Assembly (NCBI GenBank): GCA_003725745.1
Contig: RHDP01000001.1
Coordinates: 2,509,501 to 2,573,500 of the forward strand
DNA length: 64,000 nucleotides
Source of the DNA: Streptomyces sp. I6
GTDB taxonomy: Bacteria; Actinomycetota; Actinomycetes; Streptomycetales; Streptomycetaceae
Reading direction: 5' to 3'
How positions within the stretch are numbered: position 1 is the stretch's first letter; each line of letters begins with the position of its first letter. Made by a program: the position numbers and the translations under genes. The notes under the pieces were generated by a model that did not search any database, was not told where the DNA came from, and worked only from the letters and a program-made list of their open reading frames with translations. Shown piece by piece: positions 26,394 through 28,480 of the stretch.

Positions 26394-26804
26394 GTGCCCG
26401 GAATCGACGAGTGTCTACTGCACGCCATGCGGCTGCCCGGCGTGCGCGGCGCCGCCCTCGTCGACTGGACCAGCGGACTCGCCCTCGGCACGGTCGGTGA
26501 CGCCGCAGGCGACGACCACGAGACGGCCGCGGCCGAGACGGCGGAGCTGGCGCGCATGGTGGCGGAGCATCCCACCTTCGCCCCGGTGGGCACCGCCGGC
26601 GGCCCGGAGACGGACCACGGCAAGACCCCTCCGGTGGAGGACCTCGTCGTCACCACCCGCACGTGCTACCACGTTCTGCGCTTCGTCGAGACGAGCTTCG
26701 ACAGCAGTGTCCTGCTCCATCTCTGGCTCGACCGCGCGGAGGGCAACCTCGCCCTCGCCCGGCTCAGAATGCGCGACCTGACGGAGCGGCTGGTACTGGA
26801 GTGA
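26394..26804 (+). CDS. Roadblock/LC7-like protein (first of the cluster)
   Basis: 136 residues. The start 'GVRGAALVDWTSGLALGTVG' and the end 'LHLWLDRAEGNLALARLRMR' closely match the last gene of this cluster (28106-28480), so the two are paralogues. They have the small roadblock fold that works as a dimeric scaffold or GTPase regulator in MglB-type and conservon systems. The middle is longer and less regular than in the paralogue. GTG 26394 is preferred, with GGGGGA about 8 bases upstream. Its stop overlaps the next gene's start (GTGA), so the pair is translationally coupled. Confidence 0.78.
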   Translation: MPGIDECLLHAMRLPGVRGAALVDWTSGLALGTVGDAAGDDHETAAAETAELARMVAEHPTFAPVGTAGGPETDHGKTPPVEDLVVTTRTCYHVLRFVETSFDSSVLLHLWLDRAEGNLALARLRMRDLTERLVLE

Positions 26805-27562
26805 CCGTCTCACCGATGCTGCTGCGGCTCGCCTCCGAGCGGGCCACCGGGGCCCTCTTACGGGACCGGGGGACGCTGTACCTCGTCGAGGGCCAGGTCG
26901 TGCACGCCGAGAGCCCCGCCGCGCCGGGCATCGACGTCATGCTCTCCGCCACCGGAAGGCTGCGCGCCGACGGCTGGACGCAGGCCATCCGCGAGGCCGG
27001 GGCGGACGGCGCGGTCGGCCGGTACCTCGTCGACAGCGGCCTGGTGTCCGGCGGCGAACTGGAGATCTGCCATCTGGGGGCGCTCTTCGACGCGGCGTTC
27101 TTCGCCCTCTCCCCGAGCAGCGGCCCCACCCGCTTCCGCTACGGCGTGGCCCACTGGATAGGCCCGGTGCGGCCGGTGCCCGCCGAGGCGGTCGAACGCG
27201 AGACCCTGCGGCGCCGGGCCCTGCTGGACCGCCTCTGGGCGCATCCGGAGACGGACACCGCGCCGGTGGTTCCCTCTCCCCGGACCGCCCGTCTGCGGAC
27301 AGCCCCACGGCAGCGCGCCGTGCTCGACCTGGCCGACGGGGTGCGTACGCCCCCCGACATCGCCCGGGCTCTGGGCCGCCCCGCGTTCCACACCCTCATC
27401 GACGTACGCCGGCTGGCGGCGGCCGGGCTCGTCGAGACGCCGCGCCCGGCGGCCGACGCGCCCACCCCGCCACCCGATGTCGCCCGCCTGATGGCGATGT
27501 CCGCCGATCCGGACGTCGCCCTGCTCCGCCGGCTCCGTGACGCCCTGGAGGCAACGCTGTGA
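26801..27562 (+). CDS. DUF4388/PATAN-like protein with a C-terminal helical domain; contains a TTA codon
   Basis: 253 residues. The N-terminus 'ASERATGALLRDRGTLYLVE' and 'GQVVHAESPAAPGIDVMLSA' resemble the DUF4388 (PATAN) domain found in bacterial signalling proteins. Residues about 165-230 ('QRAVLDLADGVRTPPDIARA', 'HTLIDVRRLAAAGLVETPRP') look like a winged-helix fold. Leu20 is encoded by TTA at 26858-26860, read only by the bldA tRNA, so synthesis should depend on bldA. GTG 26801 overlaps the previous stop. It lies between roadblock genes and is probably their partner. The domain assignments are by eye and moderate. Confidence 0.75.
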   Translation: MTVSPMLLRLASERATGALLRDRGTLYLVEGQVVHAESPAAPGIDVMLSATGRLRADGWTQAIREAGADGAVGRYLVDSGLVSGGELEICHLGALFDAAFFALSPSSGPTRFRYGVAHWIGPVRPVPAEAVERETLRRRALLDRLWAHPETDTAPVVPSPRTARLRTAPRQRAVLDLADGVRTPPDIARALGRPAFHTLIDVRRLAAAGLVETPRPAADAPTPPPDVARLMAMSADPDVALLRRLRDALEATL

Positions 27563-27600
27563 TGCGCGCGATGAGGCAGCGCGCCGAGAGGAGACAGCTG

Positions 27601-27984
27601 ATGACCGCGAGCACCGGGGTCCTCGACGAACTGCACCGGTTGAGGACCCGGCTACCGCAGCTCACCGGCGCCCTCGCGGCGAGCGTGGACGGCCTCGTGC
27701 TGGCCAGGGACACACCGGAGGCGGAGGCGGAGACCGTCGCCGCGCTGACCGCCGCCGCGCTCGGCGTGGCCGTGCGGCTCACCGAGGCGACCGGCCAGGG
27801 CCGCTTCCGCGAACTCCTCGTGCGCGGCGAGAGCGGCTATGTGGCGACGTACGCGGCGGGCACCGCCGCCGTGATCACCGTGACCGCCGAACCCCGGGTC
27901 AACGTCGGCCGGTTGCACCTCGAGGTCCGCAAGACCGGGGCGCGCATCGGCGAACTCGTGGACGGAGCACTCGAACGCCCCTGA
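27601..27984 (+). CDS. Roadblock/LC7 domain protein (MglB-like)
   Basis: About 127 residues. The pattern 'LPQLTGALAASVDGLVLARD', 'ALGVAVRLTEATGQGRFREL' and 'AAVITVTAEPRVNVGRLHLE' is typical of the roadblock fold of MglB and CvnB proteins, which bind small GTPases or form scaffolds. GAGGAG lies 7 bases before ATG 27601; an alternative ATG at 27562, overlapping the upstream stop by one base, would add 13 residues. No MglA/CvnD-type GTPase gene is present in the window. Confidence 0.85.
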   Translation: MTASTGVLDELHRLRTRLPQLTGALAASVDGLVLARDTPEAEAETVAALTAAALGVAVRLTEATGQGRFRELLVRGESGYVATYAAGTAAVITVTAEPRVNVGRLHLEVRKTGARIGELVDGALERP

Positions 27985-28105
27985 ACCGACCGGCACCGCC
28001 GGCCGGGCGCCGGCCGGACGCCCCCGGACCGGAGGCCAGCGGCCTCCCGCCTCCGACGGGCGAACGCATCACCAGAACCGAACAGTTCCACAACAAGGAG
28101 AGACC

Positions 28106-28480
28106 ATGGCGAACACCGAGACGGCCCTCAAGGAAGCGATGGCCGTGATCGAGGGCGCGGTCGGCGTCGCTCTCGTCGACTACACCAGCGGTATGGCACT
28201 GGGCACCATCGGCGGCGGCAAGCACCTCGACCTGAACGTCGCGGCGGCGGGCAACACCGACGTGGTGCGGGCCAAGCTGCGCGCGATGGAGATGCTGGGC
28301 CTCCAGGACGAGATCGAGGACATCCTCATCACCCTGGGCGGGCAGTACCACCTGATCCGGCTGCTGAAGGCGCGCGGCGGCAACGGGCTGTTCCTGTACC
28401 TCGCGCTGGACAACAAGCGCGCCAACCTGGCGATGGCCCGCCACCAGCTGCGCAAGATCGAGGCCGAGTTGGAGGTCTGA
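28106..28480 (+). CDS. Roadblock/LC7-like protein (last of the cluster)
   Basis: 124 residues. 'AVGVALVDYTSGMALGTIGG' and 'LYLALDNKRANLAMARHQLR' are shared with the first gene of the cluster, and the predicted helix-sheet order is that of a roadblock protein. The middle segment 'DVVRAKLRAMEMLGLQDEIE' is a long helix. It has the strongest ribosome-binding site of the four genes (AAGGAG, 6-7 bases before ATG) and a 121-base upstream gap, so it may be made in excess over the others or from its own promoter. Confidence 0.85.
   Translation: MANTETALKEAMAVIEGAVGVALVDYTSGMALGTIGGGKHLDLNVAAAGNTDVVRAKLRAMEMLGLQDEIEDILITLGGQYHLIRLLKARGGNGLFLYLALDNKRANLAMARHQLRKIEAELEV

Follow-up and report, generated by a model that had tools for sequence, protein, structure and literature searches.

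In Ragulator/GATOR, roadblock heterodimers hold the Rag GTPases. The bacterial systems closest to the locus considered here are the conservons, made of a kinase (CvnA), a roadblock protein (CvnB), a DUF742 protein (CvnC) and a GTPase (CvnD), and the MglA-MglB systems that have PATAN proteins as neighbours. The locus itself is a cluster of four genes, g1-g2-g3-g4, on the + strand at 26394-28480 of a 64,000-nucleotide stretch of Streptomyces sp. I6 DNA (contig RHDP01000001.1, positions 2,509,501 to 2,573,500; hereafter the window). We read it, with a probability of roughly 0.58, as a regulator module for small Ras-like GTPases of the CvnD/MglA type. In this reading it brings no GTPase with it, and its targets are one or more GTPases from other places in the genome, the conservon GTPases being the likeliest.

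According to the accessible parts of PMC13343842 and PMC13015309, MfpD (the CvnB homologue of the mycobacterial mfp conservon) is the GTPase-activating protein (GAP) of the GTPase MfpB, and MfpC (the CvnC homologue) is its likely guanine nucleotide exchange factor (GEF); one figure legend in PMC13015309 swaps these two roles. MfpD dimerizes via helix 2 and strand 3, and a modelled GTPase meets the helix-2 face (PMC13015309, accessible part). PATAN proteins lie near some MglA/MglB genes, as stated in the available part of PMC4316618, which cites Makarova et al. 2006; that part also describes a small, exclusively orphan clade of MglB proteins from actinobacteria, which do not have conservon genes as neighbours. 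With MfpD a GAP, MfpC a likely GEF and PATAN proteins close to MglA/MglB, the cluster is therefore read as a GAP/GEF-like module for a remote GTPase.

The likeness to conservons, as the accessible parts of PMC13343842 and PMC8510531 describe them, lies in the CvnB-like g3 and in the C-terminal half of g2, which resembles CvnC (DUF742). In contrast to them, the cluster is without the CvnA kinase and the CvnD GTPase, its g2 adds a PATAN domain and is without the N-terminal stretch of CvnC, and g1 and g4 have no conservon counterpart. The mfp conservon has its own GTPase (MfpB) and a kinase, and the accessible parts of PMC13343842 and PMC13015309 mention neither a PATAN part nor a g1 or g4 for it. 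With the MglA-MglB systems that have PATAN neighbours (PMC4316618, available part) the cluster shares a roadblock protein of the MglB type with a PATAN protein as its neighbour; it differs from them by the absent GTPase and by an added second roadblock-fold protein together with the paralogue of the latter. The features are as follows.

26394..26804, + strand: g1, 136 amino acids, GTG start; probable divergent roadblock-fold protein, paralogue of g4
26801..27562, + strand: g2, 253 amino acids; PATAN (DUF4388) domain, winged helix and C-terminal helix, CvnC-like
26843..27205, + strand: PATAN/DUF4388 part of g2, residues 15-135
27284..27436, + strand: winged-helix part of g2, DUF742/CvnC-like, residues about 162-212
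27506..27559, + strand: C-terminal tail of g2, CvnC-tail-like, residues 236-253
27562..27984, + strand: g3, about 140 amino acids; MglB/CvnB-type roadblock protein; alternative start GTG 27559
28095..28102, + strand: likely ribosome-binding site of g4, AAGGAGAG, read from the sequence
28106..28480, + strand: g4, 124 amino acids; highly conserved protein, apparently of roadblock fold, without a Pfam match

The genes g1 and g2 overlap by 4 nucleotides, and g2 and g3 by 1 nucleotide (start ATG 27562) or by 4 (GTG 27559), the start of g3 being the sole uncertain gene boundary. Support for the start of g1 comes from an N-terminus that is conserved across a 22-row family alignment. A spacing of 121 nucleotides separates g3 from g4, which is preceded by a good ribosome-binding site. 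The genome is of the Streptomyces type (7.05 Mb), and the nearest named record is Streptomyces pacificus (g1 97% and g4 99% identical).

The roadblock protein g3 and its companions g4 and g1

An earlier note on this DNA, made without database searches, took g3 for an MglB-like roadblock protein, g1 and g4 for paralogues and g2 for a DUF4388/PATAN-like protein, and all of these assignments are supported. The Pfam model Robl_LC7 matches g3 at 65.2 bits (cut-off 23), which places it in the roadblock/LC7 superfamily. Among structures in the PDB, g3 matches 7f8m at E 1.2e-13, and its family profile matches CvnB5 (3leq) at E 4.4e-18 and also MglB. The Robl_LC7 score and the 3leq match together identify g3 as CvnB-like in the conservon sense; it may belong to the orphan actinobacterial MglB clade of PMC4316618, as outlined in the available part of that source. 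A basic amphipathic N-terminus of g3, suggestive of membrane binding, was considered and dropped because its charge and moment vary among 29 members.

For g4, there is no Pfam match at E<=1 and no PDB match by sequence better than E 0.12. Its AlphaFold model, built from 52 sequences, is of high score (predicted local distance difference test, pLDDT, 92.5; predicted template-modelling score, pTM, 0.87) and presents its elements in the order a-b-b-a-b-b-b-a, that of the roadblock/LC7 fold. When the model was compared with the PDB by Foldseek, MglB was the best match (E 8.9e-7; template-modelling score, TM, 0.85), and 81 matches were obtained at E<=0.001, the best 50 of which are MglB, MglC, Ragulator/LAMTOR, MP1-p14, a Streptomyces roadblock protein and one axonemal chain. 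The LAMTOR5 model is matched weakly by 5 of the 52 family members (best E 0.014). On the strength of the predicted structure, g4 thus appears to have the roadblock fold that the earlier note expected of structure predictions; the likeness to MglB/MglC of M. xanthus and to the Ragulator (LAMTOR) dimers is one of fold only, with no sequence-level match.

The paralogy of g1 and g4 is evident from 32% identity (E 4e-18) and from an hhalign value of 99.9% for the two families. By itself g1 reaches 15.1 bits with Robl_LC7, below the cut-off, and 10 of the 22 members of its family match that model at E<=0.1; via its relation to g4, it is probably a divergent roadblock-fold protein. No sequence-level homology was found between g1/g4 and g3 by BLASTP of g3 with g4 or by hhalign, and because of this unlikeness the roadblock assignment of g4 is founded on its fold. 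Conservation of g4 is high (mean column identity 73%), and its best-conserved stretches, helix 2 and strands 3-4, lie, in a comparison by eye, close to the faces used in MfpD.

A few further observations concern these two genes; L-numbers denote loci and G-numbers genomes. In five loci (L054, L055, L058, L059 and L060), g1 is 188 to 241 amino acids long and carries an insert in the middle of the protein, which in several of them splits the match to g1. The genome of the window has a second, lone copy of g4 (L004:9796-10182; C1:1913801-1914169, - strand), which is 79% identical and adjoins a gene for an ArsR-like regulator, an arrangement repeated in L064. The lone g4 homologue (52%) of a 1.3 Mb genome outside the class (L163, G300) lies downstream of a gene that reads like that of an rRNA dimethyladenosine transferase.

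The PATAN domain and the CvnC-like half of g2

With the model DUF4388 (PF14332), g2 obtains 20.1 bits, short of the cut-off of 25; at E<=0.1 the model matches 29 of the 34 members of the g2 family, and g2 is its sole match at E<=1 in the genome. In the AlphaFold model of g2 (pLDDT 90.1), an N-terminal PATAN domain is followed by a winged helix and a C-terminal helix. Foldseek gave no match for g2 at E<=0.001; three of the first four hits are SEA or KICSTOR-GATOR1 chains, all weak (E 0.063, 0.22 and 1.2).

The C-terminal half of g2, tail included, resembles CvnC/DUF742. Alignment by hhalign of the C-terminal parts of 34 homologues with nine CvnC proteins gave 92.6% (E 4.6e-7) for a stretch comprising the winged helix and roughly the final 15 residues, as opposed to 0.3% for four ArsR-like proteins and at most 1.5% for 20 column-shuffled CvnC alignments. 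These nine are from the ten places of the genome that exceed the DUF742 cut-off, L115 being left out because its frame runs into a GTPase. When the tail is omitted, the value is 67.5% (E 5e-5). Scored on a matrix of CvnC tails, the tail of g2 obtains 14.0, which was reached by none of 5000 shuffles and by none of 1145 filtered open reading frame ends. The latter background had been purged of g2 sequences and of every end matching LL.R[LV]R.[AL]LE, a filter that favours the claim; its highest score (10.5) lies in L042 and may itself be that of a CvnC-like protein. In 24 of the 34 family members, the tail scores above 10.5. The statement of the earlier note that the cluster lacks all other conservon parts is therefore not supported, since g3 is CvnB-like and half of g2 resembles CvnC.

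A winged helix would also suit a transcriptional regulator, with g2 as the DNA-binding part under the control of the roadblock proteins and no GTPase involved. Pfam winged-helix models do match the family at least as often as DUF742 (at E<=0.1 and n=34, MarR_2 9, HTH_47 9, HTH_20 8 and DUF742 4), and the best PDB matches of the g2 profile are annotated as transcriptional regulators (E from 6.7e-4). The tail matters for the CvnC link precisely because Pfam alone does not single out DUF742. The gap between the hhalign values obtained with CvnC and with the ArsR-like set, the former of which falls to the 67.5% given above when the tail is removed, speaks for a CvnC relative instead, as does the report that the CvnC homologue MfpC is a likely GEF (PMC13343842, accessible part). 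A DNA-binding role of this kind is considered improbable.

Conservation of the cluster and absence of a neighbouring GTPase

A search of 296 genomes of the class to which the source organism belongs revealed a g4 homologue (E<=0.001) in 76. In all, 82 loci were read, namely the window, 47 loci from the genome set and 34 from named records; since all were picked for a match to g1 or g4 and several genomes gave two, ratios among them are not frequencies. The four genes stand in the order g1-g2-g3-g4 on one strand in 50 of the 82 loci, a count that allows overlapping genes (45 of 82 when these are disallowed) and takes a better g4 match at the place as g1. The ordered loci come from several actinobacterial families and include Streptomyces, Kitasatospora, Dactylosporangium and families f17 and f4, one of which may be Dactylosporangium's own. 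The cluster is thus real, and the co-occurrence search proposed in the earlier note bears it out.

Partial sets exist as well. In many loci g4 is alone; elsewhere it accompanies g3 (L047), g3 with a divergent g2 (L046, L071) or a g1-like gene (L039, L040, L069, L072, L073). The genes g1-g2-g3 occur without g4 in L042, and g4 is divergent from g1-g2-g3 in L061. Comparison of 50 loci yielded no widely shared neighbour family besides the four genes, so the neighbourhood gave no hint of function; an ABC-transporter ATPase family is present in 10 loci at varying distance, and a few families recur in sets of 4 to 12 loci, most of them from Streptomyces.

The lack of a GTPase and a kinase at the locus, noted earlier for the cluster, extends to its relatives. 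With five CvnD/MglA-type queries (E<1e-5, within 6 kb), no GTPase was detected in any of the 53 loci that hold g2, g3 and g4 within 6 kb, 48 of which have at least 5 kb on both sides. A single CvnA query from the genome of the window, a frame also holding a roadblock part, likewise had no match in any of the 53 at the same threshold and distance, a search that was not aimed at other types of kinase. Among the remaining 29 loci, six have a GTPase within 6 kb (L042 at 5.9 kb, L049, L050, L160, L161 and L162). The CvnA query does match L160 and L161, but at the second roadblock gene, because the query frame itself contains a roadblock part.

Over the respective cut-offs the genome of the window has 12 Robl_LC7 matches among 15 listed, 10 DUF742 matches among 25 listed and 9 matches to ATP_bind_1 (CvnD-type GTPases) among 25 listed. 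Eight of these nine GTPases have a roadblock match as well as a DUF742 match in their vicinity, and the ninth (near 6.637 Mb, L165) has a roadblock nearby and no DUF742 match. A profile built from eight GTPase sequences was run against 80 genomes, 79 with g4 and one (G153) without; four genomes, among them G228 and G232 with weak g4 or g1 matches, were left out. At E<=1e-8 the profile matched in 79 of the 80 genomes and in 78 of the 79 that carry g4, and the 25 g4-bearing genomes of the same genus have 9 to 14 CvnD-type matches each.

Two places of the genome, near 6.626 Mb (L164) and 0.755 Mb (L166), combine a roadblock and a DUF742 match with no GTPase match beside them; in L164, a kinase-like frame also holds a roadblock part. 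Such places, together with the loss of the GTPase gene from conservons described in the available part of PMC4316618, would fit a view of the cluster as a decayed conservon that has lost cvnA and cvnD and whose remainder is drifting. Against decay stand four intact genes kept in order over several families, the strong conservation of g4, the fact that neither g1 nor g4 is a component of conservons, and the separation of g3 from CvnB-type proteins in a tree, weakly supported as it is. This makes decay a very improbable account.

Relatives beside a GTPase and the proposed function

Of 396 genomes searched across the phylum, 20 matched altogether; five genomes with g4 lie outside the class and give six loci. 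At three of the six, L160, L161 and L162 (g4 61%, 60% and 63% identical), a GTPase lies next to g4 on the same strand. The order is GTPase, a protein of 222 amino acids, g3-like and g4 in L160; GTPase, a protein of 219 amino acids, g3-like, a partial g4-like reading (residues 48-119 only) and g4 in L161; and g4-GTPase-roadblock in L162. The Robl_LC7 cut-off is passed by the g3-like proteins of L160 (65.1 bits) and L161 (67.5) and by the roadblock of L162 (34.7), and the ATP_bind_1 cut-off by the GTPases of L161 (45.3) and L162 (46.1); the GTPase of L160 is 73% identical to that of L161. The intervening protein of 219-222 amino acids lies at L161:7835-8494 and L160:2237-2905; for the L161 copy, Pfam yields nothing better than E 0.07.

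A divergent operon of L161 encodes a roadblock protein, a PATAN-winged helix protein and a GTPase, which is the order CvnB-C-D. The slot of CvnC is here occupied by a g2 homologue (DUF4388 114.9 bits), which hhalign relates to g2 at 97.4% (E 1e-11). The same roadblock gene and part of the PATAN gene are visible in L160 up to the contig end. Within the class, L049 and L050, both of one family, have a GTPase and a roadblock gene followed by a g4-like gene, which brings the GTPase-linked relatives to five loci. In a tree of 46 roadblock proteins, the g3-like rows of L160 and L161 fall on the side of g3. The opposite side holds the CvnB-type rows, among them the ones from the genomes of L160 and L161, and the branch between the two sides is weak (68/84); L162 is on the g3 side with a very long branch. 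An ortholog of the L161 GTPase was sought in the genome of the window, where nine matches of 38 to 45% identity were obtained, none of them clear.

On these grounds, action on a remote GTPase is favoured over a GTPase-free scaffold, the two readings offered by the earlier note, because some relatives carry a GTPase beside them. The contact, the catalysis and the target supposed here are inferred from family, fold, gene order and linkage. In the mechanism we propose, g3, alone or with g1/g4, would be the GAP-like part and would meet the GTPase as a roadblock dimer, and g2 may be the GEF-like part, by analogy with the report for the CvnC homologue MfpC. The PATAN domain would receive an input or recruit the target, g1 and g4 may pair as a roadblock heterodimer to gate or tether the complex, and the lineage would have lost, or never gained, the linked GTPase. 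A more specific form of the proposal, in which the g1/g4 heterodimer, g3 and the PATAN-CvnC fusion make up a shared trans-acting regulator, a Ragulator-like platform that sets several of at least nine CvnD GTPases, is speculative and, as framed, unlikely.

Several observations weigh against a remote GTPase as the target. As regards g2, its winged helix scores 15.4 bits with DUF742, below the cut-off of 27; the tail score is 3.0 or less in 8 of the 34 family members; it has no counterpart of CvnC's N-terminal stretch (RPYxxTGGRT or similar in nine CvnC rows); and the tail of the L161 homologue scores only 6.0, within the background. As regards linkage, three of the six loci outside the class (L158, L159 and L163) have no GTPase near, and the linked loci are five in number, with L160 and L161 coming from incomplete assemblies. 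The g4-like proteins of L049 and L050 are only 36-41% identical, and their roadblocks fall on the CvnB side of the tree. In L049, neither the GTPase (22.1 bits against a cut-off of 27) nor the roadblock (18 bits against 23) reaches the Pfam threshold, and those of L050 were found solely by similarity to L049 (51 and 52% identity). The linkage may moreover be secondary, because g4 is rare outside the class (2 of 24 and 1 of 66 genomes). As regards partners, G512 carries g4 homologues and has no GTPase-profile match at E<=1e-8, and a single weak match (E 8e-10 to 5e-9) was obtained for each of G221, G273 and G300. Finally, contact of the cluster proteins with any GTPase is at this stage a prediction.

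The scaffold reading draws on some of the same facts. It holds that g1, g3 and g4 form hetero-oligomers that, with g2, localise or titrate another target (DNA, a kinase, or a membrane or polar protein), and it adds that the GTPase link of the relatives was lost together with its function. The absence of a linked CvnD-type GTPase from the 53 loci, the many solitary g4 genes, the winged helix of g2 and the presence of Ragulator subunits, known scaffold parts, among the fold matches of g4 would all suit it, and it stays open because no CvnD-type GTPase was detected in at least one of the genomes that carry g4, the three with a single weak match pointing the same way. It has to contend with three facts: g3 and g2's C-terminal half are members of, or similar to, the conservon GAP and GEF families; relatives of g2, g3 and g4 adjoin GTPases in a few lineages; and the GTPase-poor genomes, to the extent that they were read, contain g4 but no complete cluster. 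A scaffold is accordingly a possible but rather doubtful explanation, and the remote-GTPase reading is retained.

No published description of the four-gene set was found in the open literature searched, a scope that leaves out most subscription journals. The earlier view of an undescribed system is only partly right, because orphan actinobacterial MglB proteins are already in print, as are MglB-PATAN neighbourhoods (PMC4316618, available part). As far as the searches go, the new elements are the roadblock families of g4 and probably g1, the relation between PATAN proteins and CvnC, and the relatives linked to a GTPase.

To our knowledge, how the CvnD-type switches of one cell are coordinated is still an open question. 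If the proposal is true, cross-talk between such switches could naturally take place at a conserved set of GAP/GEF-like proteins that lacks a GTPase of its own. The families of g4, and probably of g1, would add to the roadblock fold members mostly missed by Pfam, and the resemblance of the PATAN protein to CvnC would connect the MglA/PATAN systems with the conservons. The GTPase-linked relatives make the hypothesis testable.

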